Positions 44,786 through 63,127 of a DNA stretch of 64,000 nucleotides are shown in pieces (position 1 is the first letter of the stretch; the number at the start of each line of letters is the position of its first letter). The notes beneath the pieces are model-generated. The model saw only the letters and a program-made list of their open reading frames with translations. It was not told the origin of the DNA and searched no databases. The stretch lies in assembly GCF_002078605.1 (NCBI RefSeq), contig NZ_MSJR01000011.1, positions 1 through 64,000 of the forward strand, in the 5' to 3' direction. This DNA comes from Salegentibacter sediminis (GTDB lineage: Bacteria > Bacteroidota > Bacteroidia > Flavobacteriales > Flavobacteriaceae). The position numbers and the translations under genes are program-made.

Positions 44786-44807
44786 TATTAACTTCTGCTA
44801 TGAAATA

Positions 44808-44996: not shown

Positions 44997-45056
44997 TTGG
45001 AAAATTAATGAATAGGCAGAGCCCTTTATTCTATTAGCAGTGTTTTTATTTTTTTA

Positions 45057-45866: not shown

Positions 45867-45867
45867 T

Positions 45868-46335: not shown

Positions 46336-46508
46336 TTTATATAATTTTTGTTCGTGATGGTAATTCTTGTTGTGTTTTTTTCGATTCCGAGGATGTGCCC
46401 TCCAAAATACAGAATTAACACAATTTATCCCCCGTATAGAGGTAAGTTTTTATAAGGTAGGGTTATAGTTGTATTTTAAAGGAAGCTTATTTTTTTTTTC
46501 TAAATTCA

Positions 46509-46547
46509 GACGGACGGCGGTGCGAAGCGAGAGAACCGTTTTGCCGG
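46509..46547 (+). repeat. 39-bp REP-like palindromic element, copy 3
   Basis: Same orientation. The 3' arm has changed to ACCGTTTTGCCGG, so the stem is weaker than in the other copies. It lies upstream of the yegP-like gene and begins the segment duplicated at 62335. Confidence 0.85.
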
Positions 46548-46711
46548 ATTGGTTAGTTGGTAGTCTTTAGCCGGTAGCTTTTTTTGGTTGCGAATATGAA
46601 GCGGATTTAGTCTACAGTCTAATTGGTAAGTTTGGATCAAAGCATTGGCAATGATTTTAATTTACTCAATTTTATTATCTTTAAAAAGAATATTAAAAAC
46701 CAATTACTACT

Positions 46712-47038
46712 ATGGGTAAATTTGAGATTAAAAAAGACAAAGCGGGGGAATTCCGTTTTAACCTAAAGGCCGGAAATGGCCAGGTTATTTTAAGCAGTGA
46801 AGGCTACAAAGCAAAACCTTCGTGTATGAATGGGATAGAATCTGTTCGTACCAATTCCCAGTCTGATGATCGCTTTGAACGCAAAGAAACATCCACAGGT
46901 CATAAATTTAACCTGAAGTCGACCAATGGCCAGGTAATAGGCACCAGCGAGGTGTATACTAGCGTATCTGCTATGGAAAACGGAATCGCATCGGTAAAAA
47001 AGAATGCTCCCGATGCCACAATAGATGATAATTCTTAA
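46712..47038 (+). CDS. YegP-family (DUF1508) protein with two repeats
   Basis: A 108-residue protein of two DUF1508 repeats: FEIKKDKAGEFRFNLKAGNGQVILSSEGY...NGIESVRTNS, and ERKETSTGHKFNLKSTNGQVIGTSEVY...NGIASVKKNA. Each repeat is a small alpha/beta unit of unknown function, widespread and often present as several paralogues. A TATCTTTA sequence 28-36 bp upstream may be the -7 box. Two terminators follow. A decayed copy of its promoter and first nine codons lies at 62374-62570, on the far side of the fructan locus. Confidence 0.92.
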   Translation: MGKFEIKKDKAGEFRFNLKAGNGQVILSSEGYKAKPSCMNGIESVRTNSQSDDRFERKETSTGHKFNLKSTNGQVIGTSEVYTSVSAMENGIASVKKNAPDATIDDNS

Positions 47039-47061
47039 GTTTTAATTTAGGGGTTGATGAT

Positions 47062-47104
47062 AAGTAGTGCTGCTTAATTATATACTGGTAGCACTACTTT
47101 TTTT
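47062..47104 (+). terminator. Rho-independent terminator of the yegP-like gene
   Basis: Perfect 10-bp stem AAGTAGTGCT / AGCACTACTT with an 18-nt loop and a run of seven T. Confidence 0.85.
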
Positions 47105-47112
47105 ATTCAAAT

Positions 47113-47143
47113 AAAAAGGTCGGGATTGCTCCAGACCTTTTTT
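47113..47143 (+). terminator. Second terminator hairpin, at the left edge of the 86-bp direct repeat
   Basis: Stem AAAAAGGTC / GACCTTTTT with a 12-nt loop. The downstream arm belongs to the 86-bp direct repeat, while the upstream arm is missing at the right-hand copy. Confidence 0.75.
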
Positions 47144-47207
47144 CATGCAACTTGTTTCAAATATTTTAGGCGGACGACGGTGCGAAGCGAGAGAGCCGTC
47201 TCGCCGG
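47122..47207 (+). repeat. 86-bp direct repeat, left copy (contains 39-bp element copy 4 at 47169-47207)
   Basis: Begins GGGATTGCTCCAGACC and ends with the 39-bp REP-like element. It matches 62288-62373 at 84 of 86 positions (differences at 47158 C/T and at one base in GGACGACGG/GGACGGCGG). Confidence 0.93.
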
Positions 47208-47400
47208 GAATGTGGTTTTAATTTAAATTATTTGATAAATTAAATGGGGGAGATTGTTTTTTATTTTTCGCATTGAAATCAGCGTATTTGAGAGGGATGT
47301 ATTTTAATTGTTATAAAAAAATTAAATTCAATACCTTTCAATTCTATCTTACGGCTTTTCGTGGGAGCTGGTTTTTGATTTAATTTTATATCCGTTTAAT

Positions 47401-50124
47401 ATGAAGTATGTTTTTAAGGTTGTTTTAATAGCCTTGTTTTTCCTTTCAATTTCCTGTACCGATAATAAAAGCCAAAATCAGAAATATTCCATAGGCTTTT
47501 CCCAGGCCATGACTACCGATAATTGGCGGAAACAAATGAATAGATCCATGCAGGTGGAAGCCTCAATGCATCCTGAGATTGAACTTGAAATAAGCGATGC
47601 CGGAAACAATGTTGAGAAGCAAATTGAACAAATTGAAAAATTCATAGAAGCCGGGGTAGATATCCTTATTGTTTCTCCCATCCAGTCCGTACCAATAACT
47701 CCGGTAATTGATAAGGCCATGGTTGCCGGGATTCCCACTATAATTATAGACCGAAAGATTGAAGGCAGTAATTATACGGCCTATCTAGGTGCCGATAATT
47801 TTGAAATTGGTTCAAATGCAGCCCGGTATATCCTATCTGGCGAGGAAAGCGGTGCTGAAATTTTTGAGCTTACCGGTGCCGAAGGGTCATCTCCGGCTCA
47901 TGAGAGGAGTAAGGGTTTTAGAGATATTATAAACGCCACCAAAGATTTTAAAATTACCCATAGGATTAAGGGCGATTGGGAAAAATCTTCTATTACCAGT
48001 GCTTTAGCTGCACTTTTTGAAGATGAAGTAATTCCCGATTTTATCTTTGCTCATAATGATCGAATGGCCTTGGGGGCCTGGGAGGTAGCGCGGGACTACT
48101 CCCTTGAGGACCAAATAAAAATTATAGGGGTGGATGGTCTTTTTGGACCAAGTGGAGGAATTCAATTAGTGAAGGAGGGAATTTTGGATGCCACAATACT
48201 TTATCCCACGGGGGGTGCAGAAGCTATAAAACTAGCGCAACAAATTTTAGACGGGGACAGCGTTGGCAAAAATAATATTTTGCGAACTGTGGTTATCGAT
48301 TCAGTGAATGTTGGGATAATGCAGAATCAATTTGATAAAATTAACCAACAACAGAACGATATTGCGCGCCAACAATACACCATTAAAGAGCAAATTGCTA
48401 CCTATAATTCCCAGAACAATCTTGTGAAAATTATGATGGGTCTGGCGGCTATTCTCTTTTTCCTAATGCTTTGGAGTATTTACCTTCTATATAAAAACAA
48501 GAAAAGCAAGAAAAGGCTGGAGTTGAACAACCAGAAAATTATAGTGCAGAGAAACCAAATCGAAGATTTTGCTCAGAAACTAAAAGAATCTAACGAAAGT
48601 AAGATCAATTTTTTTACCGCACTTTCCCATGAATTCAAAACACCGCTTACTTTAATTACCAGTTCTATAGAGAATATCGCGAAAAATTCTTCCGGGAGTC
48701 TGAAAGCTTTTGATTATGAAACCAAGTTAATAATCAATAATTCCAAACGTTTATTAAGATTGATAAATGAATTGCTGGATTTTAGGAAACTGGAAGGTGA
48801 TTCATTCAGATTAAAACCGGTAAGAACAAATCTCCACGATTTCATTGAAAGTATTTATTCCGATTTCAAAAGTGAAGCGCTAAGAAAATCTATTACACTT
48901 GAACTTACATCCAATGTTAAAGATCCTGTTGCTTATATAGACAGGGATATGATGGATAAGGTTTTTTTTAATCTTCTCTCGAATGCATTTAGATTTACCC
49001 CCAAAAACGGGAATATTTCTATTAAGCTTTCTGAAACTGAAAAGCTTTTTGAGATCACTATTAAAGATTCAGGACTGGGGATTCCTAAGGAGGAATATCA
49101 TCGCATCTTTGATCCTTTTACCCAAGCTACCAATAATGGAAAAGTTAGTTCGGGACTGGGCCTTTATATCACTAAGCAGTTTGTTGAATTACATAAGGGA
49201 CAGATTAGTGTGACTTCCCGTCAAGGTGCTGAATTTAAGGTGTCACTGCAGAAAGGTAAAGATCACCTTACAGATTATGAGGTGTCTGAAAAGGAATTAT
49301 CCTTAAAAACAGGCCAGGGGGATTCGATCCTTAATGAGGAAATTGAAAATCTTGAATTCCCTATACCGGTAGAAGATGAGAACAAGGAGTGTCTTTTGAT
49401 TATTGAAGATAATTCTGATCTTTCCCAACTTTTATATAAAAAATTTCATCCTTTTTTCAGGGTATATTTATCGGACGGTACCGACGGAATAGAAAAGGCC
49501 CTGGAAATAATTCCCGATGTGATAATCTGTGATCTGAATTTACCTGAAAAATCCGGTTTTGAAATATGTCACGAACTTAAAAACGATTTACGAACTTCCC
49601 ATATTCCCACGCTCATTTTAACAGCGCTTAGTGACGAAGAATCCCGTTTAAAAGCCCTGAAAGCGGGTGCCGATATGTATATTACCAAACCTTTTAATTT
49701 TGAAGTTCTTGAGCAATCAATTATTTCAGTGTTATATAACAGAGAAAAATTACGGTATTACTACACCAATAAAATCGATGAGGTTAAGGATGAAGAATTC
49801 AACACCTCTGAACAGAATTTTCTCAAAGATTTAAATTCATTAATTGAAAAAAATATTGCCCAACCCAATTTTAGCGTTGAAGACCTCGCCCAGCAACTTC
49901 ACATTTCCAGGGTTCAGCTTTACCGAAAAGTAAAGGCCATATTAGGAATAAGCATTAGTGAATATATAAATTCCCAAAAACTGGCTAAAGCTAAAAATTT
50001 GCTTCAGGATTCTAGTCTGAATATTTCTGAAATTGCTTATCAATTAGGTTATTCTTCTCCCGGATATTTCTCCACTTCTTTCAAGAATAAATACGGAGTT
50101 TCTCCAAAACAATATAGAAGTTAA
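47401..50124 (+). CDS. Hybrid two-component system with periplasmic sugar-binding sensor and AraC output
   Basis: A 907-residue single-chain regulator. A signal/lipobox-like start (FFLSISC) precedes a LacI-type periplasmic binding domain (about 28-310; YSIGFSQAMTTDNWRKQM, IFAHNDRMALGAWEVARDY, IKIIGVDGLFGPSGG). A membrane span follows at 342-362, then the kinase core with His410 (FFTALSHEFKTPLTLI) and ATPase lobe (NLLSNAFRFTPKNG, SSGLGLYITKQFVELH). The receiver has Asp711 (VIICDLNLPEKSGFE) and the C-terminal AraC helix-turn-helix (SVEDLAQQLHISRVQLYRK ... EIAYQLGYSSPGYFSTSFK). The same layout is known from the fructose-binding BT1754 sensor of Bacteroides thetaiotaomicron. It precedes the fructan genes and probably activates them when periplasmic fructose binds. 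Confidence 0.95.
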   Translation: MKYVFKVVLIALFFLSISCTDNKSQNQKYSIGFSQAMTTDNWRKQMNRSMQVEASMHPEIELEISDAGNNVEKQIEQIEKFIEAGVDILIVSPIQSVPITPVIDKAMVAGIPTIIIDRKIEGSNYTAYLGADNFEIGSNAARYILSGEESGAEIFELTGAEGSSPAHERSKGFRDIINATKDFKITHRIKGDWEKSSITSALAALFEDEVIPDFIFAHNDRMALGAWEVARDYSLEDQIKIIGVDGLFGPSGGIQLVKEGILDATILYPTGGAEAIKLAQQILDGDSVGKNNILRTVVIDSVNVGIMQNQFDKINQQQNDIARQQYTIKEQIATYNSQNNLVKIMMGLAAILFFLMLWSIYLLYKNKKSKKRLELNNQKIIVQRNQIEDFAQKLKESNESKINFFTALSHEFKTPLTLITSSIENIAKNSSGSLKAFDYETKLIINNSKRLLRLINELLDFRKLEGDSFRLKPVRTNLHDFIESIYSDFKSEALRKSITLELTSNVKDPVAYIDRDMMDKVFFNLLSNAFRFTPKNGNISIKLSETEKLFEITIKDSGLGIPKEEYHRIFDPFTQATNNGKVSSGLGLYITKQFVELHKGQISVTSRQGAEFKVSLQKGKDHLTDYEVSEKELSLKTGQGDSILNEEIENLEFPIPVEDENKECLLIIEDNSDLSQLLYKKFHPFFRVYLSDGTDGIEKALEIIPDVIICDLNLPEKSGFEICHELKNDLRTSHIPTLILTALSDEESRLKALKAGADMYITKPFNFEVLEQSIISVLYNREKLRYYYTNKIDEVKDEEFNTSEQNFLKDLNSLIEKNIAQPNFSVEDLAQQLHISRVQLYRKVKAILGISISEYINSQKLAKAKNLLQDSSLNISEIAYQLGYSSPGYFSTSFKNKYGVSPKQYRS

Positions 50125-50201
50125 GAAAATGTTACTTTTTACCTTTTAATTCTATTGATATAAGGTAACAAAAATGGAAAGTGTGTATCAAATTTATAAC
50201 T

Positions 50202-50211
50202 ATAACGTTAT
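50202..50211. promoter_or_regulatory. 10-bp palindrome upstream of the fructan operon
   Basis: ATAACGTTAT, perfectly self-complementary, in the 241-bp gap between the sensor gene and the transporter gene; GTTATCGTTA overlaps it. A possible AraC-output binding site, on position only. Confidence 0.3.
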
Positions 50212-50365
50212 CGTTAATTTTTAATCTAAGATATAAACAGCTTTAATCCAGTTAGTTATAAGCTTATTTGCTCTTCCTTAACGATTTTATAACTTTTTGA
50301 TTAGATCTTAGAATTTCCCGGGTCATTTTAAATATACTTTAGTAATCACGATAATAAATTGAGAT

Positions 50366-51712
50366 ATGAACAAGATATTTGCCTGGTCGATAAGTGCAGC
50401 TTTAGCCGGTTTTTTATTCGGATTTGATACCGTGGTGATTTCCGGGGCCGATAAACAACTTCAGGCACTTTGGGGGACCTCCGATGCCTTCCACGGTTCG
50501 GTAGTAATGGCTATGGCCTTATGGGGAACAGTAGTAGGAGCAATTTTTGGCGGGATTCCCACCAATAAATTCGGAAGGAAAAATACTCTTTTAATAATAG
50601 GAGTGCTTTATTTTATTTCGGCACTTGGATCGGCGCTTGCTAATGATCCTATCACTTTTGCTGCTTTACGGTTTATTGGTGGTTTAGGGGTTGGGGCTTC
50701 TACTATTGCGGCTCCCACTTATATTTCTGAAATAGCACCCGCAAAACACCGAGGCAGGCTGGTTTCTATGTACCAGTTCAATATTGTTTTAGGGATTTTA
50801 ATCGCTTTTCTTTCTAACTATTTACTAAGAAATACCGGGGAGGAACCCTGGCGATGGATGGTTGGAATTGAAGCAGTTCCTGCTTTTATTTACTTCCTTT
50901 TTGTGCTTTTTATTCCCAAAAGCCCAAGGTGGCTTATCTCCAGATCAAGAAATTCCGAAGCAGCTGATATTTTGCAGTCGATAAACCCCGATACAGACCT
51001 GGAGACGAAAATGCAGGAAATAAAACAGCAGTCAGAGACTAAAGTTTCGGGAGAGAACATTTTTATGAAAAAATATCGGTTTCCGCTCATTTTGGCATTC
51101 TTGGTGGCTTTTTTCAACCAGCTTTCCGGGATAAATGCTTTCCTTTATTATGCACCCAGAATTTTCGAAGAAGCCGGCCTTGGTGCAAGTACAGCTTTAT
51201 TAAGCAGTATTGGAATAGGGGTGGTGAACCTGCTGTTTACATTATTAGGAGTTTTTTTAATAGACAAGCTTGGGAGAAAGCAATTAATGTTTTTAGGTTC
51301 GATAGGTTATATTATTTCTCTCTCACTGGTGGCAGCCGCATTTTTCCTTAATTGGGGTGGACTTTGGGTGCCTATATTCCTCTTCCTGTTTATTGCGGCA
51401 CACGCCATTGGCCAGGGAGCAGTGATTTGGGTTTTTATTTCAGAAATTTTTCCGAATCATTTACGGGCATCGGGACAAGCTTTCGGCTCTTCAACACATT
51501 GGGTGCTGGCGGCCATAATTCCTTCGCTTATACCGTTCCTGTTTTCCACTATTGGAGCGGGTTACGTATTTGCATTTTTCGCCTTTATGATGGTGCTACA
51601 GCTTCTCTTTGTGATCTTTATGATGCCGGAAACCAAAGGTAAATCTCTGGAAGAATTAAGCGAAGAACTGGCATTAAAAGATAACGGGGAACTTTCATAT
51701 AAAAATCAATAA
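50366..51712 (+). CDS. Sugar porter family MFS transporter (probable fructose/H+ symporter)
   Basis: A 448-residue, 12-helix sugar porter: FAWSISAALAGFLFGFDTVVISGA in helix 1, NKFGRKNTLLIIGVLYFISA after helix 2, and the SP signatures FIPKSPRWLIS and FLIDKLGRKQLMF, plus MMPETKGKSLEEL at the end. It is the first gene of the operon (GH32 gene 14 nt later). The operon content (two fructosidases, fructokinase) points to fructose as substrate. It would bring monosaccharide across the inner membrane. Confidence 0.92.
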   Translation: MNKIFAWSISAALAGFLFGFDTVVISGADKQLQALWGTSDAFHGSVVMAMALWGTVVGAIFGGIPTNKFGRKNTLLIIGVLYFISALGSALANDPITFAALRFIGGLGVGASTIAAPTYISEIAPAKHRGRLVSMYQFNIVLGILIAFLSNYLLRNTGEEPWRWMVGIEAVPAFIYFLFVLFIPKSPRWLISRSRNSEAADILQSINPDTDLETKMQEIKQQSETKVSGENIFMKKYRFPLILAFLVAFFNQLSGINAFLYYAPRIFEEAGLGASTALLSSIGIGVVNLLFTLLGVFLIDKLGRKQLMFLGSIGYIISLSLVAAAFFLNWGGLWVPIFLFLFIAAHAIGQGAVIWVFISEIFPNHLRASGQAFGSSTHWVLAAIIPSLIPFLFSTIGAGYVFAFFAFMMVLQLLFVIFMMPETKGKSLEELSEELALKDNGELSYKNQ

Positions 51713-51726
51713 TCAAAGCAGAAATC

Positions 51727-53316
51727 ATGAAATATATTTATCAAAGCTTACTTTTCTTTTTCCTGGGAGGCATGCTCTTCACGTCTTGCAAAAATCGCGA
51801 GACCGGGAAGTCTCCCTCAGAAAATGATACAGTAGTACAGGCCGACGAAGATTTTCGTCCCGATTTCCATTTCACACCAAAATCTGGATGGATGAATGAT
51901 CCTAACGGGATGTTTTACCTCGACGGGACTTATCATCTCTTTTTTCAGCATAATCCCGATGATAATGTTTGGGGGCCTATGCACTGGGGTCATGCCACCA
52001 GTACCGATATGATAAACTGGGAAGAGCAGCCTATTGCCCTGGAACCCGATGAAAACGGAACTATTTTTTCGGGTAGTGCGGTTGTAGACCACGATAATAC
52101 TTCCGGTCTGGGAGACGGGGAAACCCCGCCGGTTATTGCGATTTTCACCTATCACAATGCTGAAAGAGAGCAGGAGGGAGAAGATGATTTTCAAACCCAG
52201 GGAATCGGCTATAGCCTGGACGCTGGTGAAACCTGGACCAAATATGAAGATAATCCTGTTCTGGGTAATCCTGGAATCAGGGATTTCAGGGATCCTAAGG
52301 TGATTTGGTATGAAGAAGAAAATAAATGGATTATGTCCCTGGCAGTTCAGGATCGAATCAGTTTTTTTTCATCTCCTAACCTTCTAGATTGGGAACACGA
52401 AAGCGATTTCGGACAGGACCTGGGAGGCCACGGCGGAGTTTGGGAGTGCCCAGATCTTTTCAAAATGGAAGTAGATAACACCGATGAAGAAAAATGGGTG
52501 CTTTTGGTAAGCATTAATCCCGGTGGACCAAACGGCGGCTCTGCCACGCAGTATTTTGTTGGAGATTTTGATGGTTCCACTTTTACTCCCGATGAATCTA
52601 TTGCCAACATGGGAGAAGAGCACAACTATTGGTTAGACTTCGGAAAAGATAATTATGCCGGGGTAACCTGGTCAAATATTCCGGAAGAGGATGGTCGCCA
52701 CCTTTTTATCGGCTGGATGTCTAACTGGCAATACGCCAATGAAGTTCCTACCGAAACCTGGAGGAGTGCCATGACCCTTCCACGGGATCTTAAGCTTACA
52801 CAACAGGAGAATACATACCGAATTGTTTCAACGCCGGTACGTGAACTTGAAAAATATAGTACTGAAGGAATTTCAGAAAGTTCGGTAGAGATTAAGGACA
52901 GCACCAGCCTGGCTACGTCAGCAGATCTGGATTTAAGCCAAGCTGAAATACTTTTTGAAATCCCAGAATTGCAGGAGAAGAAATACACATTCTCTCTTAG
53001 CAATGAAAAAGGTGATGTTTTGAAGTTTGGTTACGACCACGGGAAGGAAGAATTCTTTATCGATAGAAGTAATTCCGGATTAGTGGATTTCAACGAAAAT
53101 TTTGCCAATAAGATTTCTACTGCTCCAAGATTTTCGGATGCCGAAAATCTCGAAGTTCGGGCAATAATAGACAATATGTCTATTGAACTTTTCTTTGATG
53201 GTGGTCACACGGTTATGACCGAAATCTTTTTTCCGCAGCAGGCCTTTAATAACTTTTCTGCTGAAGGCGATAATAAATTTACCCTTGAAAACCTTCAGAT
53301 AAATCAAATAAATTAA
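51727..53316 (+). CDS. GH32 glycoside hydrolase lipoprotein (fructan beta-fructosidase)
   Basis: A 529-residue lipoprotein with lipobox MLFTSC and KNRETGK after the cysteine, so no acidic export signal. The five-bladed propeller holds the GH32 residues Asp58 (nucleophile, GWMNDPNGM), Asp189 (DFRDPKVIW) and Glu240 (acid/base, VWECPDLF). The C-terminal beta sandwich (about 375-529) includes FFIDRSNSGLVDF and IDNMSIELFFDGGHTVMTEIFF. It cleaves beta-fructosyl bonds (levan, inulin or sucrose). Lack of an acidic signal suggests a periplasmic location, but that is inference. It is closely similar to the second GH32 of the locus. Confidence 0.95.
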   Translation: MKYIYQSLLFFFLGGMLFTSCKNRETGKSPSENDTVVQADEDFRPDFHFTPKSGWMNDPNGMFYLDGTYHLFFQHNPDDNVWGPMHWGHATSTDMINWEEQPIALEPDENGTIFSGSAVVDHDNTSGLGDGETPPVIAIFTYHNAEREQEGEDDFQTQGIGYSLDAGETWTKYEDNPVLGNPGIRDFRDPKVIWYEEENKWIMSLAVQDRISFFSSPNLLDWEHESDFGQDLGGHGGVWECPDLFKMEVDNTDEEKWVLLVSINPGGPNGGSATQYFVGDFDGSTFTPDESIANMGEEHNYWLDFGKDNYAGVTWSNIPEEDGRHLFIGWMSNWQYANEVPTETWRSAMTLPRDLKLTQQENTYRIVSTPVRELEKYSTEGISESSVEIKDSTSLATSADLDLSQAEILFEIPELQEKKYTFSLSNEKGDVLKFGYDHGKEEFFIDRSNSGLVDFNENFANKISTAPRFSDAENLEVRAIIDNMSIELFFDGGHTVMTEIFFPQQAFNNFSAEGDNKFTLENLQINQIN

Positions 53317-53326
53317 ATCCTAACAC

Positions 53327-56300
53327 ATGAATTATAAGCTATTAATCTTTTTTTTCTTACCCCTTTCTGTATGGGCACAAGAAATAGACATTTCGGGAAC
53401 AGTAATTTCCCAGGATGACCAAATGCCTTTGCCGGGTGTATCCATTCAGGTGGAAGGTACCACCAAAGGTGTAATAACTGACTTTGATGGAAATTATTCA
53501 ATTGAAAATGTTGATGCACAAAGTGTTTTAGTTTTCAGCTATTTGGGTTTTCAGGCCCAAAGAATAGAAGTGAATGGACAAACAAGTATTGATGTTTCGT
53601 TAATTATGGATGCAGAGCAATTAGAAGATATTGTTGTAACCGGATATACATCTCAAAGGAGAACTGATATAACCGGGGCCGTCTCTGTAGTTGATATGGA
53701 TGAGTTGAATAAACAGCCAGAACCAAACCCCGTAAGAGGTTTGCAAGGAAGACTTCCCGGAGTTCAAATAACTTCAGATGGTTCTCCTAGTGGATCTAAT
53801 ACCCAGGTTGTAATCCGTGGAGTTGGTACTCTTAACAATACAGACCCATTGTATGTAATTGACGGAGTCCCTACTAAAGCTGGTATGCACGAGTTGAATC
53901 CCAATGATATTGAATCTATTCAGGTTTTAAAAGATGCCGCTTCTGCCAGTATTTATGGTTCAAGGGCATCTAACGGGGTAATTATAGTTACCACTAAAAA
54001 GGGAAAAGAAGGAAGAATGCAGGTTAATCTTAATACCTACTTGTCTTCTTCCACCTATGCCAACCGGCAGGAAGTTCTTAACGCTGAGCAATATGGACGG
54101 GTTTTATGGCAATCACAGGTGAACGATGGTATAGATCCTAATACTAATAATTTGAGATATCAGTTTGACTGGGATTATAATAATAATGGTGAGGCGGTAC
54201 TTAACAATATAATTGTGCCCGAATACCTGGATGAGGAACAGACCTTAAGGTCTTCAGATACTGATTGGTTTGATGAGATTTCCCAAACAGGCTTTGCTCA
54301 ATCCTATGATTTATCGGTTACTAATGGAACCGAAAAAGGGAATTATCTTTTTTCCCTGGGCTATTATGACAATGAAGGGATCGTAAAGACAACGGAATTT
54401 AACAGAATCTCGGCACGGATGAATAGCAGTTATAAATTCTTTGATGAGCGATTAGAAATAGGGGAAAACTTTACATTCAATAAAACCCACGAAGTTACTA
54501 ATCCAGGTGTTCTTGACCTTGCATTAAAAGCATCTCCAATTATTCCTGTTCGAACTGTAGATGGAGAAGGTTGGGGAGGACCAGTTGGAGGAATGAATGA
54601 CAGACAAAATCCTGTTCGTTTATTGGAATATAATAAAGACAATGGTTATGATTATCATAGGGTATTTGGAAATGCCTTTGCAGATTTAGAGATTATAGAA
54701 GATCTGCATTTAAGGACGAATTTTGGTTTGGACTATAGCAATTTTTATAAACGATCTCTTCAGAGAAGTTATAAATCTGGTTATTTACAAAATAATGAGA
54801 CAGCGGTAAATGTTGAGGACTGGAGAAGTCTAAAATGGACCTGGACGAATACAGCTACTTATGAATTTAATCTGGAAGACCATGATTTCAGCTTACTTGC
54901 CGGTACAGAGATGTTCAGGGATGATTATAAAAATATTAATTTAAGGAGAGAGGGTTTTATACTCGAAACTCCGGAATATATGTATCCGGATGCTGGTAGT
55001 GGAGAAGCCTATAATGGCGGTTCTGCTACTTCATATAGCTTACTGTCATTCTTCGGTAAGTTAGATTACGTCTTTGATCGAAAATACCTCTTTTCTGCTA
55101 CTTTGCGACGTGATGGCTCTTCAAGATTTGGGGAAAATAATCGTTTTGGAACTTTTCCTGCCTTTTCTGCGGGTTGGCGAATAAGTGAAGAGAACTTTAT
55201 ACAAGACAATTATTCATTTTTATCGGATTTAAAACTTCGTCTAGGATGGGGGCAAACTGGTAATCAGGAAATTGATAATAATGCTATTTATTCTTTATAC
55301 GTATCAGATTATGCGGGTGGGGATCCCACCTGGGGAACATCTTATGGAACGGCTTACGACCTGACAGGCGCAGGTTCCGGTTTATTGCCATCGGGTTTCA
55401 GGGGCATTCAAATTGGGAACGACAACCTGAAATGGGAAACTACTACTCAAACCAATGTTGGACTTGATTTTGGTTTTTTTGGGTATAAACTATTTGGAAA
55501 TATTGAATATTACTTTAAAGAAACTGAAGATATACTAGTACTTCCTCCTTATTTAGGAACAATTGGTGAAGGTGGAAACAGATGGGTGAATGGAGCTTCT
55601 ATGGAAAATGAAGGTTGGGAATTTGCATTGACCTACAGGGATAAAACAGAAGGGGATTTCAGTTATGAAATTTCAGCCAATATTTCAATGAACAGAAATG
55701 AAATCACTTATCTTCCAGAGGAAGTTCAGAATAATTATGGTGGAGATGGAGGTGAGGATAATATCTTAGGTAGGCCTATAAATTCAATGTACGGTTATGT
55801 TGCTGATGGTATATTTTCTACAGAAGAGGAGGTGCTCAATTCTGCGGAACAACAAGGGAAAGGTCTTGGCCGTATCAGATATCGCGATTTAGATGGGGAC
55901 GGAGTTATTACAGATGATGACCGAACATGGATTGGAGTGCCACATCCCGATTTCAGTTACGGGTTTAATTTCACCTTAGGTTATAAGAACTTTGACTTTA
56001 CCTCATTCTGGCAAGGAGTTGGAAGGGTTGATGTAGTAAATAGTCGAAAATTCCAAACAGACTTCTGGAGTGTGGATGATGTAGGGTCGAATAAGGGCAC
56101 CCGACTTTTGGATGCCTGGACCCCGGAGAATTCCAATTCCTCTATTCCGGCCTTAACTACCACAGACAGAAATGCCGAATCCCGCTTTTCAACCTATTTT
56201 GTAGAGAATGGACAATATCTAAAGCTTAGAAATCTACAGGTAGGATATAGTCTTTCGGAAGATCTCCTTGAAAGACTAAAATTCAGCAATGCCAGATTTT

Positions 56301-56425
56301 ACGTGAGTGGTCAAAATTTACTCATGATAACTTCATCTGATTTTACAGGGGTTGATCCTGAAAATGCCGGATGGGGTTATCCCCAGCCTCTTACGCTAAC
56401 TCTAGGTTTAAACTTATCACTTTAA
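53327..56425 (+). CDS. SusC-type TonB-dependent outer-membrane transporter
   Basis: A 1032-residue protein. A signal peptide ends at VWAQ, followed by a carboxypeptidase-D-like N domain (ISGTVISQDDQMPLPGVSIQVEGTTKG). The plug has the TonB-box region DIVVTGYTSQRR and the SusC hallmarks GVQITSDGSPSGSNTQVVIRGVGTLNNTDPLYVIDGVP and LKDAASASIYGSRASNGVIIVTTKKG. The barrel ends in LTLGLNLSL. Together with SusD (15 nt downstream) it imports oligosaccharides, here expected to be fructo-oligosaccharides. The start lies 10 nt after the GH32 gene. Confidence 0.97.
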   Translation: MNYKLLIFFFLPLSVWAQEIDISGTVISQDDQMPLPGVSIQVEGTTKGVITDFDGNYSIENVDAQSVLVFSYLGFQAQRIEVNGQTSIDVSLIMDAEQLEDIVVTGYTSQRRTDITGAVSVVDMDELNKQPEPNPVRGLQGRLPGVQITSDGSPSGSNTQVVIRGVGTLNNTDPLYVIDGVPTKAGMHELNPNDIESIQVLKDAASASIYGSRASNGVIIVTTKKGKEGRMQVNLNTYLSSSTYANRQEVLNAEQYGRVLWQSQVNDGIDPNTNNLRYQFDWDYNNNGEAVLNNIIVPEYLDEEQTLRSSDTDWFDEISQTGFAQSYDLSVTNGTEKGNYLFSLGYYDNEGIVKTTEFNRISARMNSSYKFFDERLEIGENFTFNKTHEVTNPGVLDLALKASPIIPVRTVDGEGWGGPVGGMNDRQNPVRLLEYNKDNGYDYHRVFGNAFADLEIIEDLHLRTNFGLDYSNFYKRSLQRSYKSGYLQNNETAVNVEDWRSLKWTWTNTATYEFNLEDHDFSLLAGTEMFRDDYKNINLRREGFILETPEYMYPDAGSGEAYNGGSATSYSLLSFFGKLDYVFDRKYLFSATLRRDGSSRFGENNRFGTFPAFSAGWRISEENFIQDNYSFLSDLKLRLGWGQTGNQEIDNNAIYSLYVSDYAGGDPTWGTSYGTAYDLTGAGSGLLPSGFRGIQIGNDNLKWETTTQTNVGLDFGFFGYKLFGNIEYYFKETEDILVLPPYLGTIGEGGNRWVNGASMENEGWEFALTYRDKTEGDFSYEISANISMNRNEITYLPEEVQNNYGGDGGEDNILGRPINSMYGYVADGIFSTEEEVLNSAEQQGKGLGRIRYRDLDGDGVITDDDRTWIGVPHPDFSYGFNFTLGYKNFDFTSFWQGVGRVDVVNSRKFQTDFWSVDDVGSNKGTRLLDAWTPENSNSSIPALTTTDRNAESRFSTYFVENGQYLKLRNLQVGYSLSEDLLERLKFSNARFYVSGQNLLMITSSDFTGVDPENAGWGYPQPLTLTLGLNLSL

Positions 56426-56440
56426 TAAAAAATCTTAATC

Positions 56441-58135
56441 ATGAAGAAATTAAAATATTTACTAGGCATAGTGGTTCTGACGATCTCCTCAGCCTGTTCA
56501 GATTTTCTGGAGGAGGAACCTTATGCAGTTTTATCAGAGGATCAATTGGTGACTCCTGAAAATATCGATGGCTTCGTAACATCAGCTTATGCTGCCCTGG
56601 GAAATGATCATTATGATATTCCTTTTAGCCTATGGCCATATGGGAATGTACGTTCTGATGATGCCTATAAAGGAGGTAGTGGTACAAATGATATTCAAGT
56701 ATTTCACTTTTTTGAAGTCTCAGAAAATATTCGACCAGATTTTGGAGAATTGGATGCCTTCTGGTATAACAGTTTTATTGCTATCTCCAGGGTTAATAAG
56801 GCTTTGGCTGCTTTAAATCAAATTGATGAGGCTGAGTTCCCGGATAAGCAATCACGGATTTCAGAAATGAAATTTTTAAGGGGCCATTTTTATTTCATGC
56901 TTAAAATCATGTACAAATATGTGCCATACATTACAGAAGACATTCCCGTTGAGGAATACGGAACTATTTCGAATAGATTTTTAAGTAATGATGAATTATG
57001 GAATGCCATCGCTACTGATTTTGAAGCCGCAGCAGAAGGTCTTCCAATAGAACAGCCGGAAGTTGGCCGTGCGGATAAAACGGCAGCCTATGCATATTTG
57101 GCGAAAACAAGGCTCTATCAGGCTTATGAACAAGATGAGAGTCATAACGTTATAAATATTAATCAACAAACCCTACAGCAGGTTTTAGATGCTACAGATC
57201 AAGTGATTGGGCAGCATCAGTTAGAAGCAGATTTTGCACATAATTTTCTTCCGGGAAGTTATGAGAATGGAACTGAAGCGGTTTTTTCTATTCAATTTTC
57301 TAACAATGATGGGACGCTTCATGGTAGACTGAATTATTCAGATGTTCTAGCAACACCCCAGGGAATTGGGTGTTGTGATTTTCATAAGCCCAGTCAAAAC
57401 CTCGTAAATGCATTTAAGGTTAGCGAGGAGGGTATACCACTTTTTTCGAGCTATAATGATACCAATGTCGATTTTAATAATTTAGATAATTATGATGTAG
57501 ACCCCAGATTGTATCATACCGTGGCTATCCCAGGATTACCATGGAAGTATGATAATGAGGATATTTATAGAGAAGACTGGGTTAGGTCTCCAAGTACATA
57601 TGGTTATACTGCCTCTTTAAAAGAGAATGTTACAGCAGATTCAGAATACCTGGTAAACATAGATCCCTTTTACGGAAATTCAAAAAATCGAATTGAAATC
57701 CGTTATGCGGATGTATTATTGATGAGGGCTGAAGCTTTAATTGAAATCGGCCGCCACAATGAAGCTTTACCTTTAATAAATGAGGTTAGAGAAAGAGCAG
57801 CACAGAGTACTTCCCTAATATCGTCGTATGCAACCAATTCAGCGATTAGACCTTATATAGATGGAGACAACGTTAATTGGACACCGGAAGTTGCGCGAGA
57901 GGCTTTACGCTGGGAACGAAGACTGGAACTTGCCATGGAAGGAAATAGATTTTTTGATCTTGTAAGATGGGGGATTGCAGGTGAAACTCTTAACAGGTAC
58001 TACGAGGAAGAGGCGGAAGAGATAAGTTATTACGATGGAGCCTTTTTTGATGAGGGTCGTGAAGAATATCTACCTATTCCACAGGCACAGATTAACTTCA
58101 GTCAAGATGTATATGTTCAAAATGCAGGGTACTAA
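56441..58135 (+). CDS. SusD-type surface glycan-binding lipoprotein
   Basis: A 564-residue lipoprotein (lipobox ISSAC, then SDFLEEEPYAV). It has SusD/RagB helices with the TPR-like scaffold: GFVTSAYAALGNDHY, RGHFYFMLKIMYKYVPYITED, YAYLAKTRLYQAYE, EIRYADVLLMRAEALIEIGRHNEALPLINEVRERA, and the closing LRWERRLELAMEGNRFFDLVRWG ... YLPIPQAQINFSQD. It forms the lid of the SusC pore and binds the glycan. It is the normal partner of the gene just upstream. Confidence 0.97.
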   Translation: MKKLKYLLGIVVLTISSACSDFLEEEPYAVLSEDQLVTPENIDGFVTSAYAALGNDHYDIPFSLWPYGNVRSDDAYKGGSGTNDIQVFHFFEVSENIRPDFGELDAFWYNSFIAISRVNKALAALNQIDEAEFPDKQSRISEMKFLRGHFYFMLKIMYKYVPYITEDIPVEEYGTISNRFLSNDELWNAIATDFEAAAEGLPIEQPEVGRADKTAAYAYLAKTRLYQAYEQDESHNVININQQTLQQVLDATDQVIGQHQLEADFAHNFLPGSYENGTEAVFSIQFSNNDGTLHGRLNYSDVLATPQGIGCCDFHKPSQNLVNAFKVSEEGIPLFSSYNDTNVDFNNLDNYDVDPRLYHTVAIPGLPWKYDNEDIYREDWVRSPSTYGYTASLKENVTADSEYLVNIDPFYGNSKNRIEIRYADVLLMRAEALIEIGRHNEALPLINEVRERAAQSTSLISSYATNSAIRPYIDGDNVNWTPEVAREALRWERRLELAMEGNRFFDLVRWGIAGETLNRYYEEEAEEISYYDGAFFDEGREEYLPIPQAQINFSQDVYVQNAGY

Positions 58136-58147
58136 AAAACTTTAATT

Positions 58148-59560
58148 ATGATCAACTATAACAGAATAAAGAGATTTGCCCTTATAACGGTTATTCTAGG
58201 AGTTGTTACTTCTTGTACCTACGACAGGGAAATTGACCAAGGAGCTAAATCCACGATTCCTAAAGTGGAGAATCTCCAAGTAGAATTAGTAGGAGATACT
58301 GCTAAGGTAACCTGGGAGCAACCATCATACGAAGGGAACCTTACAACTCGGGTAAATTATAATGGTGGTATTGAAAATATTAATACTTCGGTTAGTGAGT
58401 TTGAATATGGGATTATTGACGTAAATACGGATTATTATTTTACAGTAAAGTTACACGATGATAATGGTAATTATTCATTAGGAGAAACAGTAAGCTTATT
58501 CAGGGAGGGACCTCAAGCTGTTACAAACTTTAGAGGAGTACAGGAAGGGACCAACGTGAATTTAAGTTGGACTTTGCCTGATGAAAATATTTCAGGTATT
58601 CGATTAAGAGTCAATTCCGAAGAAATTAATCTACCGGCAGATGCCACCTCCTATACTTATGAAAATGAAGAATACGGTACTTATCGTTTTCAAATAAATG
58701 CGATGGATGCAGACGGAAATTCATCTCCTTCCAAATACCTTAACTTCACCGTGGGCACTACTAAAATAGGTTACCTTGGAACTGCTCCAGATATATCTTC
58801 TATTAATGATGACGATGAAGCAGCTTCTGCAGCCTGGCTGTTTGAGAACTATCCTGATGCTGAATATATCCAATTTTCAGATATAGAGGAAGGCCTCGAT
58901 CTAAGCGAATTCAGAGTACTGTGGTGGCATTATGATAAATCTGATAATAATCCGGGACTTCCGGCTGAAGCTACTAGTGCAGAAGTGGTTTCTGCAATTA
59001 CTGAATTCCATAAAAACGGAGGGGCGCTCTTACTTAATACACATGCCGTTCCCTATCTATGGACTATAGGACGTATGACCACCAATTTCGGTACGGTAAT
59101 AGGCGCCGGCGAAGGATTTGACAATCCAGACACCTGGGGAGTAAATGTTAATATTGGCCGGGTTCATGACAAATCTTCCCATCCGCTTTATGAAGGCTTG
59201 AATCCCAGTAATGTGGATGGACGTAAAATTATTCCACTTATCGGCCCGGGCTGGAAAGAAGATCATAATTATGTATTTGTGGACCTACCCTCTTATTATG
59301 GTTTTGGTAATGGAGATGAAGCTGCCTATGCAGCAATTAGTGAGGAAAGTAATTTAAATATTCTAGGTACCTGGGATGGAATTGCCGATTATTATATGAT
59401 GGGAATTTTCGAAACACTTCCAAATGATGAGTTCGATGGTACTGCAATCGGGATAGGATTAGGTTCCTTTGAGTGGAATCAAAATAATGGAGAAAATCAA
59501 TATCAGGATAATATAGAAGTAATCACCAAAAATGCACTTGACTATTTGAGGGTGCAATAA
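58148..59560 (+). CDS. DUF4960 surface glycan-binding protein candidate
   Basis: A 470-residue lipoprotein (lipobox VVTSC, then TYDREIDQ). Two Fn3-like domains follow (about 35-120 KVENLQVELVGDTAKVTWEQ, and 120-200 AVTNFRGVQEGTNVNLSWTL). A C-terminal DUF4960 domain (about 205-470) resembles a glutamine-amidotransferase-like flavodoxin fold (KIGYLGTAPDISSINDDDE, FRVLWWHYDK, NGGALLLNTHAVPYLW, AIGIGLGSFEWNQ). In Bacteroides levan loci a gene at this position encodes the levan-binding surface protein; I infer the same role. It is 12 nt after susD. Confidence 0.82.
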   Translation: MINYNRIKRFALITVILGVVTSCTYDREIDQGAKSTIPKVENLQVELVGDTAKVTWEQPSYEGNLTTRVNYNGGIENINTSVSEFEYGIIDVNTDYYFTVKLHDDNGNYSLGETVSLFREGPQAVTNFRGVQEGTNVNLSWTLPDENISGIRLRVNSEEINLPADATSYTYENEEYGTYRFQINAMDADGNSSPSKYLNFTVGTTKIGYLGTAPDISSINDDDEAASAAWLFENYPDAEYIQFSDIEEGLDLSEFRVLWWHYDKSDNNPGLPAEATSAEVVSAITEFHKNGGALLLNTHAVPYLWTIGRMTTNFGTVIGAGEGFDNPDTWGVNVNIGRVHDKSSHPLYEGLNPSNVDGRKIIPLIGPGWKEDHNYVFVDLPSYYGFGNGDEAAYAAISEESNLNILGTWDGIADYYMMGIFETLPNDEFDGTAIGIGLGSFEWNQNNGENQYQDNIEVITKNALDYLRVQ

Positions 59561-59574
59561 AATTATAAAAAGGC

Positions 59575-61089
59575 ATGATCAAAAAAAATGGTTTAATAAT
59601 ACTGATACTCTCATTAATTATAATAGGGTGTTCCAATGAAGATGATTTGAATGAACCTTCAGTGGTTACAGTGGGTGATAGCAATTACAGACCGGAGTAT
59701 CATTTTACTCCTGAAGAGAACTGGATGAACGATCCGAATGGAATGGTCTATTATAAGGGAGAATACCATTTGTTTTTTCAATACAACCCAAACGCGAATG
59801 TTTGGGGACCAATGCATTGGGGTCATGCCGTAAGTAATGATCTTGTAAACTGGGAAGAACTGCCGGTGGCATTATATCCTGATAATTTAGGAAATATATT
59901 TTCCGGAAGTGCGGTTGTTGACACGCATAATACGACTGGATTCAAAACCGGCGAAGAAGATGTATTAGTTTCTATTTTCACACATCAGAATCCCGAGACG
60001 AATGAGCAATACCAAAGTCTGGCATTTAGTAATGACCGGGGGCGTACCTGGGATAAGTATGAGGGAAATCCCGTACTGGTTAATGAAGAGAAGACAGATT
60101 TCCGGGATCCAAAGGTGATTTGGCATGATGACACTCAGCAGTGGATAATGGTAGTAGCTGCTGGCCAGGAGATCTTGTTTTATTCTTCTCCTAATCTTAA
60201 GGAATGGAAATTTCTGCAAAGTTTTGGTCAGGGATTGGGAGCTCATGGAGGGGTATGGGAATGTCCAGACCTTTTTATGGTGGAAAATGAAAATGGCGAT
60301 GAGAAATGGGCACTGCTGGTAAGTATCAATCCAGGAGGACCTAATGGAGGCTCCGGAACCCAGTATTTTCTTGGGTCTTTCGATGGGAAAACTTTTCAGA
60401 CCAATCAAACAGAAACTAAATGGCTTGATCACGGCCCGGATAATTACGCCGGGGTAACCTGGAGCAATGAGCCTAATGGTAGGAACCTGTTTATTGGATG
60501 GATGAGTAATTGGGCATACGCACAGGATGTTCCTACCAAAGCGTGGAGAAGCGCAATGACTTTGCCACGAAGGCTTAAATTATCTCAGGACGAGGATCTG
60601 ATCATAAGTAGACCTGCGGAAGAGATGAATTCAGTGGTAACTACTGACTTGGTAGAATTTAAATCAACCGGTGTGGAGATTCAGGATAATCCGGTTGTTA
60701 AAGGAGGAAGTTTTAAGTTGAAAACTAAATTAGATTTTTCAGAAGTAAATACTGCCCAAATTTCCTATGGAAATAGGACTTCCGGGGTGACGCTTCAATA
60801 TGATAAAGGAGCTTCTGAAATTTTCATAGATCGTAGTGATGCCGGATTTGATTTTAATAATCTCAACAATAATAATATTCGGGTTCCGTACGTGCTACCG
60901 GAGAATAATGAGTTGGATTTAGAAATTTGGGTGGATAAGTCCTCAGTGGAGGTTTTTGTTAATAGCGGGGAACGTGTAATTACCTTCCTTGTTTTCCCCG
61001 GTACTCCGTTTGATGAACTTCGCATTCATTCTTCCAAAGAAGGGGAATTCATAAAGTCTCTTGAACTTAACAAAGTAGATTCAGAATAG
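59575..61089 (+). CDS. GH32 glycoside hydrolase lipoprotein (second; probably surface exposed)
   Basis: A 504-residue lipoprotein with lipobox IIIGC followed by SNEDDLNE, an acidic stretch fitting surface export. Catalytic residues are Asp53 (NWMNDPNGM), Asp178 (DFRDPKVIW) and Glu229 (VWECPDLF). The C-terminal sandwich has EIFIDRSDAGFDF and WVDKSSVEVFVNSGERVITF. Most of the chain can be aligned with the first GH32 (for example NPGGPNGGS and GWMSNW in both), so the two are a local duplication with probable division of labour outside and inside the outer membrane. Whether it is endo- or exo-acting cannot be read from the sequence. Confidence 0.95.
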   Translation: MIKKNGLIILILSLIIIGCSNEDDLNEPSVVTVGDSNYRPEYHFTPEENWMNDPNGMVYYKGEYHLFFQYNPNANVWGPMHWGHAVSNDLVNWEELPVALYPDNLGNIFSGSAVVDTHNTTGFKTGEEDVLVSIFTHQNPETNEQYQSLAFSNDRGRTWDKYEGNPVLVNEEKTDFRDPKVIWHDDTQQWIMVVAAGQEILFYSSPNLKEWKFLQSFGQGLGAHGGVWECPDLFMVENENGDEKWALLVSINPGGPNGGSGTQYFLGSFDGKTFQTNQTETKWLDHGPDNYAGVTWSNEPNGRNLFIGWMSNWAYAQDVPTKAWRSAMTLPRRLKLSQDEDLIISRPAEEMNSVVTTDLVEFKSTGVEIQDNPVVKGGSFKLKTKLDFSEVNTAQISYGNRTSGVTLQYDKGASEIFIDRSDAGFDFNNLNNNNIRVPYVLPENNELDLEIWVDKSSVEVFVNSGERVITFLVFPGTPFDELRIHSSKEGEFIKSLELNKVDSE

Positions 61090-61133
61090 AAAAATTGCAA
61101 AGATTCCTTTTAAATAAATGATTAGTTGAAAAA

Positions 61134-62021
61134 ATGGCAAATAATAGAGCAGTTTGTTTTGGTGAAGTTCTCTTTGATGTGTTCCCCGATGGGGAACGCA
61201 TAGGAGGGGCACCTTTAAATGTCGCTTCCCGGTTAAGTAGCCTGGGGGTACAAACCGAAATGATAAGTAGTATAGGGAATGATGAAAGAGGAAATAAAAT
61301 AATGGGCTGTCTTCAGGAAAAGAACATTTCTACAAAAAATATTACAACTAAAGAAGATTACCCAACCGGGTTAGTACATGTAACGCTTTCTGAAAGTGGT
61401 TCAGCTACCTATGAGATTGATTATCCTGCTGCCTGGGATAAAATAGAGGTTTCAGAGGCTATGAATACCTCTGTATCAGATAGTAATATTTTTATTTTCG
61501 GGAGTTTAGTTTGTCGTGATGAAATAAGTCGAAGTACTTTATTTGACTTATTGGAAGTTGCGAAATATAAAGTGTTTGATATTAATTTACGTCCTCCATA
61601 CTTTGATAAAAATTTACTAATTGCGCTAATGGAAAAAGCTAATTTCATTAAATTCAATGACGACGAGCTCTTCGAAATCGCCGAAATGTTGGGGTCTCCA
61701 TTTCATTCCCTAGAACAAAATATTCACTTTCTCGCCGAAAAGACCAACACCAGGGATATTTGTGTGACAAAGGGCCGGCACGGGGCAGTTTTATTGAAAG
61801 ATGAAAAATTATATTATAACAGCGGGTTCAAAATAGAAGTGAAGGATACTGTGGGGGCAGGAGATTCCTTCCTGGCTTCTCTTTTAGCCAAATTACTTCA
61901 AGATGAAGAGCCTCAGCAGGCCTTGAATTTTGCGTGTGCGGTAGGAGCTTTGGTTGCTTCAGAAGAAGGAGCAAATCCAGATATTCCGAATGCTAAAATA
62001 AGTGCATTTATGAATGTATAG
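61134..62021 (+). CDS. Fructokinase (PfkB family)
   Basis: A 295-residue ribokinase-fold sugar kinase: CFGEVLFDVFPDGERIGGAPLNVASRLSSLG at the substrate site, FDINLRPPYF, FIKFNDDELFEIAEML, and the ATP/anion-hole signature DTVGAGDSFLASLLAKLL with the catalytic Asp. The FGE(V/I)L-D motif and the operon context indicate fructose as substrate, giving fructose 6-phosphate in the cytoplasm. It is the last gene of the operon, 44 nt after the second GH32. Confidence 0.93.
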   Translation: MANNRAVCFGEVLFDVFPDGERIGGAPLNVASRLSSLGVQTEMISSIGNDERGNKIMGCLQEKNISTKNITTKEDYPTGLVHVTLSESGSATYEIDYPAAWDKIEVSEAMNTSVSDSNIFIFGSLVCRDEISRSTLFDLLEVAKYKVFDINLRPPYFDKNLLIALMEKANFIKFNDDELFEIAEMLGSPFHSLEQNIHFLAEKTNTRDICVTKGRHGAVLLKDEKLYYNSGFKIEVKDTVGAGDSFLASLLAKLLQDEEPQQALNFACAVGALVASEEGANPDIPNAKISAFMNV

Positions 62022-62155
62022 TTATCCGATTTGAAAGGACTGAGATTTTTATTTTTCTAATTATAATTTAAATCGGCACTATAATTTGATATTTAGCCAT
62101 ATTTGAATTTGCAATTTATGAAGAGTGGGGAAGAATAGGAATTTTGGAGTTACAT
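62022..62155. other. Downstream region of the fructan operon
   Basis: AT-rich and without a clear terminator hairpin; no gene recognised. Confidence 0.35.
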
Positions 62156-62295
62156 AGAGATCTCCGCCTTTACCGAAGTGAATTCGGGATAAGCTGCGGA
62201 GATGACGAACAGCTGGAGAAATAATTTGAGATCTCCGCCTCCGCGGAGATGACATTTTGTTATTTAGTGAATTCGGGACAAGCTGTGGGGATTGC
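62156..62295. repeat. Second palindromic repeat family (two imperfect copies) at the right edge of the locus
   Basis: The core AGATCTCCGCCTCCGCGGAG (copy B, 62227-62253, self-pairing ATCTCCGC/GCGGAGAT) recurs at 62156-62206 with an insert containing GTGAATTCGGGATAAGCTG. That insert recurs at 62267 as GTGAATTCGGGACAAGCTG, running directly into the 86-bp direct repeat. Two nested fragments of the same element appear to have been joined here. Confidence 0.7.
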
Positions 62296-62373
62296 TCCAG
62301 ACCTTTTTTCATGCAACTTGTTTTAAATATTTTAGGCGGACGGCGGTGCGAAGCGAGAGAGCCGTCTCGCCGG
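62288..62373 (+). repeat. 86-bp direct repeat, right copy (contains 39-bp element copy 5 at 62335-62373)
   Basis: 84 of 86 bases match the left copy at 47122-47207. Left of it the terminator arm AAAAAGGT present at 47113 is absent, so similarity starts sharply at GGGATTGC. Confidence 0.93.
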
Positions 62374-62570
62374 GTTGGTTAGTTGGTAGTCTTTAGTCTT
62401 TAGCCGGTAACTTTTTGGCTGGGAGTGCCAAGTGGATCTTATCTATTGTCCAATTGGTAAGTTTGGATCAAAATATATTCAATGAATTAACTTTAATTCG
62501 ATTTTATTATCTTTAAAAAGAACATTAAAAAACACCTACTAGCATGGGTGAATTTGAAATTAAGAAGGAC
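62374..62570 (+). pseudogene. Decayed duplicate of the yegP-like promoter and gene start
   Basis: The stretch from TTGGTTAGTTGGTAGTC through AATTGGTAAGTTTGGATCAA and TTTTATTATCTTTAAAAAGA matches the region 46548-46711 upstream of the yegP-like gene. The ATG at 62544 is followed by MGEFEIKKD (functional copy: MGKFEIKKD). A stop at 62571-62573 stands where Lys10 should be, and similarity then fades. Confidence 0.85.
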
Positions 62571-62632
62571 TAAGCTGGAGTTGATCCCTTTGGGAGCCTG
62601 AGATTCCAAATTTTGATTAATCTAATTTTTAA

Positions 62633-63127
62633 ATGAAGTTCGGGAAGGAAGAAAAACGATTCTGGAAAACTAAATTTTCGTTTGGATTAAATAACATTCC
62701 ATATGAAGTTGAGCATTTAAGCTTCAGGGATGAATATTTGACCAACGAGGAGCTTTGCTTTATCACTTCCAGAATCAAACGAATAGAAAGATTGGATCTG
62801 GATAGTACTTCTATTGACGATGACGGAATTCCATGCCTTTTGGAAATGGATTATATAGGAGAACTTAGGCTGGTAAATCTTGATATTACAGATAAGTCTA
62901 TTAATACACTACTAAAGCTTCAGTCGCTAAAGTTCCTTCATCTTGGCTCTACACAGGTAAGTTGTGATGGAGTCTTAAAACTAGCCGACCTGCCTAATTT
63001 AAAAGAACTATTTGCAAGTCCTGAAAAAGTAGAGAAAGATAAACTGGATAACTTTATAAAACGTTCGTCAGATTGTGAGCTAATCATTAATAGTAAGCCT
63101 TATTCTAAAATTAGTTATGGGTTTTGA
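62633..63127 (+). CDS. Leucine-rich-repeat-like cytoplasmic protein, unknown
   Basis: A 164-residue protein without signal peptide. From about residue 47 it shows LRR-like repeats: RIKRIERLDLDSTSIDDDGI, IGELRLVNLDITDKSINTL, QSLKFLHLGSTQVSCDGVLKL, PNLKELFASPEKV. The spacing and the (L)xLxxTxIxDxGI pattern are those of RNase-inhibitor/cysteine-containing-type LRRs, so it is likely a small protein-binding domain. It follows the decayed yegP copy. Its partner is unknown. Confidence 0.65.
   Translation: MKFGKEEKRFWKTKFSFGLNNIPYEVEHLSFRDEYLTNEELCFITSRIKRIERLDLDSTSIDDDGIPCLLEMDYIGELRLVNLDITDKSINTLLKLQSLKFLHLGSTQVSCDGVLKLADLPNLKELFASPEKVEKDKLDNFIKRSSDCELIINSKPYSKISYGF

Follow-up and report, generated by a model that had tools for sequence, protein, structure and literature searches.

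How did the fructan polysaccharide utilization locus (PUL) of Salegentibacter sediminis reach its present site, and by which route could it leave again? The question is raised by a stretch of 64,000 nucleotides (contig NZ_MSJR01000011.1 of assembly GCF_002078605.1, positions 1 to 64,000 of the forward strand; hereafter the window), in which the PUL lies between two near-identical direct repeats of 86 bp and for which an earlier note had suggested a gain/loss module bounded by these repeats. The answer favoured here, to which a probability of roughly three in four is given, is that a 41.65-kb integrative mobilizable element (IME) residing in the 3' end of mnmE carries the PUL as one of its cargo modules. 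The integrative-element route accounts for PUL mobility better than the repeats alone, and a route other than this is neither needed nor shown.

The island starts at 34185, continues through the end of the window at 64000 and ends at contig position 75834, giving 41,650 bp with both attachment (att) cores included. Its right end coincides with mnmE (contig 75817-77268), whose last 18 bases (75817-75834) recur in the same orientation at 34185-34202 (+ strand) as the distal core TTACTTTCCAATACAGAA with 16 of the 18 positions identical, i.e., with two mismatches; in 40 contigs simulated with a first-order Markov model, no match with up to two mismatches was obtained. Beyond mnmE, the order of the chromosomal genes matches the mnmE surroundings in the relatives' loci that were compared. 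Adjoining the mnmE 3' end, a tyrosine integrase is encoded at 74450-75592, which possesses PF00589 (80 bits) next to SAM-like and arm domains and in which the residues Arg...His-x-x-Arg...Tyr were identified by eye. Furthermore, the island encodes a relaxase of the MobA/VirD2 type (PF03432, 101 bits) and a NikA-like mobilization protein (PF21983, 68 bits), whereby the features by which an IME is recognised are found together, namely a recombinase beside an att core, a relaxase with a mobilization protein, and direct-repeat cores at both ends. Other island proteins carry Toprim, VapE-like, HipA_C and HipA N-terminal as well as AbiEi domains, and among the scanned island proteins, representing part of the island's open reading frames (ORFs), no conjugation-pore gene was found. 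The HipA N- and C-terminal domains locate to two adjacent ORFs (912-2224 of the fetched stretch L034), and the AbiEi-type gene was seen by eye to possess a nucleotidyltransferase-like neighbour (L034, 7935-9711).

Elements with such ends recur within the genus. Searching 15 genus genomes (own genome, G000, and relatives designated by G numbers) for the att-core pattern with up to two mismatches revealed matches in 13 of them, while the reversed control pattern gave none. A second core oriented as that of mnmE was found at a distance of 47.0 kb in G007 and of 35.4 kb in G012; G009 has a core 15.7 kb from a diverged mnmE core, and G014 has its two cores split between contigs. In G012, a genome consisting of a single contig, a 73% match to the integrase region (C1:846890-848349) was observed beside the second att core, which suggests tandem islands at mnmE. 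The arm inside the distal core (34185-34336 or part of it) shares 69-75% identity over 114-155 bp with G014, G012, G009, G007 and C. echinicola. In the latter (L017, at ~7486), an att core with one mismatch and the distal arm locate 2.5 kb from a gene encoding a leucine-rich repeat (LRR) protein, whereby the compared stretch is one without mnmE; an island of this kind may carry the C. echinicola LRR gene, too. Outward of the distal core, positions 34140-34184 (+) form an arm of the integrase-side type, probably the remnant of an older accreted element, and 34140-34206 shares 78% identity with the junction between mnmE and the integrase gene in G007. The island hence seems to abut an older element which lacks an integrase at 34185. 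A search of the contig did not reveal the far end of this older element, the next-best core being located at 12531 with four mismatches. Left of the island boundary, 33735-34110 shares 88% identity with part of contig C13 of G003 and possibly represents remains of the older element, and near the contig start (1857-6212) an ORF of 1451 residues appears Cas9-like by eye, judged from its first residues. A plasmid search with window positions 34000-47121 gave zero matches.

Within this island, the PUL comprises eight genes, all on the + strand, extending from the sensor start at 47401 to the kinase end at 62021. A hybrid two-component sensor (47401-50124) composed of a sugar-binding periplasmic domain, kinase, receiver and AraC helix-turn-helix domain is followed by seven genes assigned by domain scan, which encode a sugar transporter (Sugar_tr/MFS, 50366-51712), a GH32 enzyme (51727-53316), a SusC-like TonB-dependent receptor (53327-56425), a SusD-like protein (56441-58135), a protein with DUF4960, fn3 and DUF4945 (58148-59560), a second GH32 enzyme (59575-61089) and a PfkB-family kinase, which by its context is a fructokinase (61134-62021). 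The kinase gene itself looks mosaic, as a 348-bp stretch within its 3' part is 86% identical in DNA to G003 while the whole protein shares 69%; upstream of the sensor, 47301-47384 shares 79% identity with sequence that follows the kinase gene in the PUL of G003. No transposase or integrase domain was detected in the eight PUL proteins, and movement of the PUL by a transposase of its own is ruled out on this basis.

The description of the repeats bracketing the PUL in the earlier note was confirmed: between the left copy (R1, 47122-47207, +) and the right copy (R2, 62288-62373, +), which have the same orientation, 84 of 86 positions agree (mismatches at 47158, C/T, and 47177, A/G), their starts are 15,166 bp apart, and they enclose the complete set from sensor to fructokinase. 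In the own genome (22 contigs, 3,264,253 bases), these two are the only full-length copies, with E-values of 3.1e-39 for the query itself and 1.6e-36 for the other copy. Among 98 other genomes, parts of the repeat were found only, the longest covering 38 of the 86 bases in G002, next to matches of 28 and 24 bases in G003 and of 34 bases each in G085 and G094. A plasmid search with the repeat gave a single match (query bases 17-46, E-value 0.2), and two patterns searched in viral contigs gave zero exact matches. The right 43 bp of the repeat, GC-rich and palindromic, constitute an element, here termed E, which is found at 47165-47207 (copy 4) and 62331-62373 (copy 5) and will be considered below. 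A further direct repeat pair of 50 bp (88% identity) is present within the island at 34923-34972 and 39266-39315; it encloses a second set of genes, encoding a GNAT acetyltransferase, an S58 peptidase and a beta-lactamase-fold protein, and its second copy resides about 40 bp from an E copy.

The flanks of the PUL allow its arrival to be read in some detail. An intact yegP-like gene (DUF1508, assigned by domain scan) is located at 46712-47038 (+), and alignment of 62331-62578 with 46505-46746 revealed 79% identity, comprising E, a spacer and the first yegP codons, so that 62374-62578 (+) corresponds to the spacer plus the decayed beginning of a second yegP-like gene, which ends after MGEFEIKKD-stop. 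As judged by eye, R1, located next to yegP, forms a hairpin together with a left arm contributed by the yegP downstream flank, while R2 is devoid of this left arm; conversely, the spacer follows both R2 and the E at 46505 and is missing after the E of R1. Since R1 lacks the spacer and R2 the hairpin arm, the PUL reads as the inserted part, and the order before its arrival was likely yegP-86bp-spacer-yegP'. With R1 and R2 being 98% identical as compared to 79% for the two stretches of E, spacer and yegP, the repeat pair appears to be of later origin than the duplication of yegP, unless gene conversion keeps the repeats alike. In an alignment with relatives' loci, the homology of the unit containing yegP fades at ~47117, just before R1, and a second comparison agreeing with this value used a query ending at 47121. 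On the other side, the LRR gene is located at 62633-63127 (+), whereby DNA homology to C. echinicola starts at 62584.

The suggested sequence of events assumes, by analogy with known IMEs, that the whole island would be excised by its integrase at the cores and would be mobilized in trans by a conjugative helper. In a later step inside the island, PUL DNA would have been inserted between yegP and the second yegP copy, duplicating the 86 bp; a single homologous crossover between circular DNA carrying the 86 bp and a resident copy would leave such a geometry. Recombination between the repeats could conceivably delete the PUL again.

Comparison with relatives revealed the related PUL to be accessory. 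Its sensor is present in 11 of the 15 genus genomes including the own one (E-value up to 1e-100), and in the stretches fetched around the PULs of the ten relatives, none of the genes flanking the PUL in the window is found beside them. No site is common to all ten; a single conserved ancestral site is ruled out for these relatives by their differing flanks. Extended common flanks were identified for G007/G008 and G001/G010 only, and smaller ones consist of two genes in G005/G007/G011, two in G009/G011, one in G005/G009 and one in G003/G013, in a comparison for which several flanks end at contig ends. The PUL proteins are mosaic in their identities, the transporter being 97% identical to that of G013, SusC 89.5% to that of G001 and the sensor at most 71% to any. 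Outside the own genome, yegP was found at three loci in two relatives, and the LRR gene, within the 15 genus genomes restricted to the own one, also occurs in C. echinicola and Gramella sp. KN1008.

Several observations weigh against the PUL being IME cargo. Further att-pattern matches, second or third and unassigned, are present in G001, G002, G006, G008 and G012, and base composition differs weakly, with a G+C content of 0.377 in the island, 0.389 to its left and 0.416 on the mnmE side. In G006, G010 and G002, whose mnmE loci have no recognised integrase, the genes left of 34185 were not found within 10 kb downstream of mnmE; the left boundary hence rests on the att sequence and not on chromosomal synteny. 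The domain scan covered part of the island ORFs. In G007, G009 and G012, a large distance separates the PUL from the mnmE island, hence this genome is the only one in which such an island is seen to carry the PUL. Neither an empty site nor an excision product or donor was encountered, and the full 86 bp are absent from the other genomes searched. Finally, the 98% identity of the repeats could result from gene conversion instead.

The competing explanations largely turn on E, which is the odd part of this locus. Its five full copies in the own genome are all on the + strand, all intergenic and all within 23.2 kb of the island; next to the two within the repeats, they are located at 39185-39227 (between 38968, the start of a - strand gene, and 39457, the start of a + strand gene), at 43284-43326 (between 42749 and 43496) and at 46505-46547 (between 46335 and 46712). 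Contig C1 contributes a partial match of 24 bases. The palindrome is intact in three of the five copies, carries one mismatch in another (at 47177) and is decayed in the copy at 46505, where the stable hairpin is lost. Single-stranded DNA folding, carried out with two intact copies and the decayed one, was weakly better than that of shuffled sequences, with z values of -1.6 and -2.0 for the two strands of 62328-62376, -2.0 for 39185-39230 and 0.44 for the decayed copy. The genes adjoining E point both ways, and two of the five copies (39185 and 46505) reside between divergent genes; since neighbouring genes run in both directions, the fixed orientation of E is not set by transcription. A function of E as terminator is ruled out by these two copies between divergent genes, and by eye no T-run was seen after E. 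An Rfam scan of 38900-62800 gave zero matches up to an E-value of 1. A covariance model built from the five own-genome copies and the G002 copy, searched under strict filters, recovered only the five in the own genome and none in 396 other family genomes drawn, of which the unmatched ones are listed in part and the inclusion of G002 is uncertain. E with three mismatches is found once in G002, in a variable-looking region outside any recognised mnmE-type island, and partial copies exist in G003. At all 17 relatives' loci examined for matching gene units (ten PUL, three yegP and two LRR loci, the ArsR-MFS unit in G003 and the RidA unit in G001), E was absent when up to 13 mismatches in 39 were allowed; relatives matching the MFS gene alone lie outside these 17.

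The alternatives are not all exclusive of an IME carrying the PUL. The one that survives best, tentative as it is and less probable than the IME cargo, assumes E to be a local repeat resembling repetitive extragenic palindromic (REP) elements or miniature inverted-repeat transposable elements, with the 86-bp pair resulting from duplication or template switching around E and the bracketing of the PUL being incidental. A Y1_Tnp gene is indeed present on contig C22, the 50-bp pair (at 34923 and 39266) documents a second pair in the same island, and the G002 copy resides in a region that looks variable. REP elements, however, have many copies that are normally dispersed over the genome, a gene for a REP-associated tyrosine transposase (RAYT) that is flanked by repeat copies, and a GTAG/GGAG foot. 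Here, the five full copies are confined to 23.2 kb, the single Y1_Tnp gene is on a contig without any E match, and by eye no such foot was noticed at E. The REP-like nature attributed to the repeats by the earlier note is no more than a resemblance, all five full copies residing in one island.

It is unlikely that the 15.2-kb PUL moves as a gain/loss module by recombination of the 86 bp in the absence of any integrase, a model which competes with the IME on the route of transfer. The unique repeat pair with its exact bracketing, the readable pre-insertion arrangement and the presence of related PULs at several different sites in ten relatives all speak for it. The PUL is, however, already enclosed by an island bearing an integrase, no partner site is known as 98 other genomes hold at most 38 of the 86 bases, and within 1.5 kb of each side of the ten relatives' PULs, no flanking direct repeat comparable to the 86 bp was found, the best being 14 of 14 bases with an E-value of 0.023 (G001, G003) and the longest spanning 40 columns at 75% (G011). 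What the earlier note had proposed is supported in part: the related PUL is accessory and varies in its site, the flanks read as insertion into yegP-86bp-yegP', and full copies of the repeat occur only here, whereby the combination that would have refuted the note (the PUL at this site in all relatives, the repeats at many unrelated places) was not encountered; the route by repeats rather than by an integrative element is not supported, and neither is the absence of an integrase, as the PUL sits in an mnmE island with a tyrosine integrase, a relaxase and two cores. The predicted empty site, in which yegP, one repeat and the LRR gene would adjoin, was found neither in the 98 other genomes nor at the yegP and LRR loci. 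The three yegP loci in two other genomes have neither E in their surroundings nor an adjoining PUL, and C. echinicola and Gramella sp. KN1008 share the LRR stretch alone, plus the att arm in C. echinicola.

A more doubtful explanation regards E as a dedicated junction element of the island, at which modules accreted stepwise with the PUL being the latest and largest, either through homologous recombination or by means of a trans-acting recombinase, in analogy to att accretion or attC cassettes. It would fit this idea that all five full copies in the genome lie on one strand, between genes and inside a 23.2-kb part of one island, that their orientation is independent of the neighbouring gene directions, and that E is absent from 17 relatives' loci with matching gene units. 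Yet no recombinase is tied to E. attC sites are folded palindromes with RYYYAAC/GTTRRRY boxes and core triplets; the boxes were not seen by eye in the E alignment, the triplets are absent, and with its 16 bases the loop is long for the core of a tyrosine recombinase. Moreover, three of five palindromes are intact and folding is weakly above that of shuffles, unit homology to relatives ends 6 to ~230 bp from E or the repeat and not exactly there, and one E in G002 is outside any recognised island of this kind. Extending this analogy to whole operons, up to the 15-kb PUL, being gained and lost at directly repeated, hairpin-forming E sites in islands of Bacteroidota, with the IME serving as an operon-scale cassette array, is improbable.

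If the PUL is indeed cargo of the IME, the island would be a candidate vehicle for the spread of fructan loci, being integrated in mnmE and having ends that are found again in several genus genomes. Island ends, integrase and internal insertion scar can be read together here, rendering transfer, excision and PUL loss separately testable, and the E copies between gene units of one island raise the question of how islands add cargo.

With regard to known systems, the Bacteroides fructan PUL of the BT1754 type comprises a hybrid sensor, GH32 enzymes, SusC/D, a sugar kinase and a sugar transporter, and the PUL described here resembles it in this gene set, including the sugar-binding nature of the sensor, the likeness being one of gene set. 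Islands of the SGI1 family occupy the 3' end of trmE (= mnmE) in Gammaproteobacteria; the island shares this target gene end and belongs to another phylum, the likeness concerning the target. A literature search combining 'polysaccharide utilization', mnmE and integrative found no report under these terms. Among Bacteroidota, the part of PMC5704250 covering NBU1, NBU2, Tn4555 and cLV25 describes IMEs with integrase and relaxase, some with an accessory mobilization protein, which rely on a helper. The island resembles them in its site-specific integrase, relaxase and accessory mobilization protein, the relaxase being compared at the level of its family; it differs in its cargo, which includes a PUL, and in its target, the mnmE 3' end, theirs being other or undetermined in that part of the source (PMC5704250). 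The same source describes, in the respective part, tandem accretion of IMEs and cis-mobilizable elements (CIMEs) with decayed elements (PMC5704250), to which the situation at 34185 is similar, as a distal arm faces the integrase-side-type arm of an element without integrase there, and dissimilar in that the older element's far end was not found on the contig. For gut Bacteroidetes, PMC6907783 reports mobile elements to carry 47 loci that include SusC and SusD; in distinction to these mobile PULs, the element described here resides in mnmE and its PUL is bracketed by internal 86-bp repeats.

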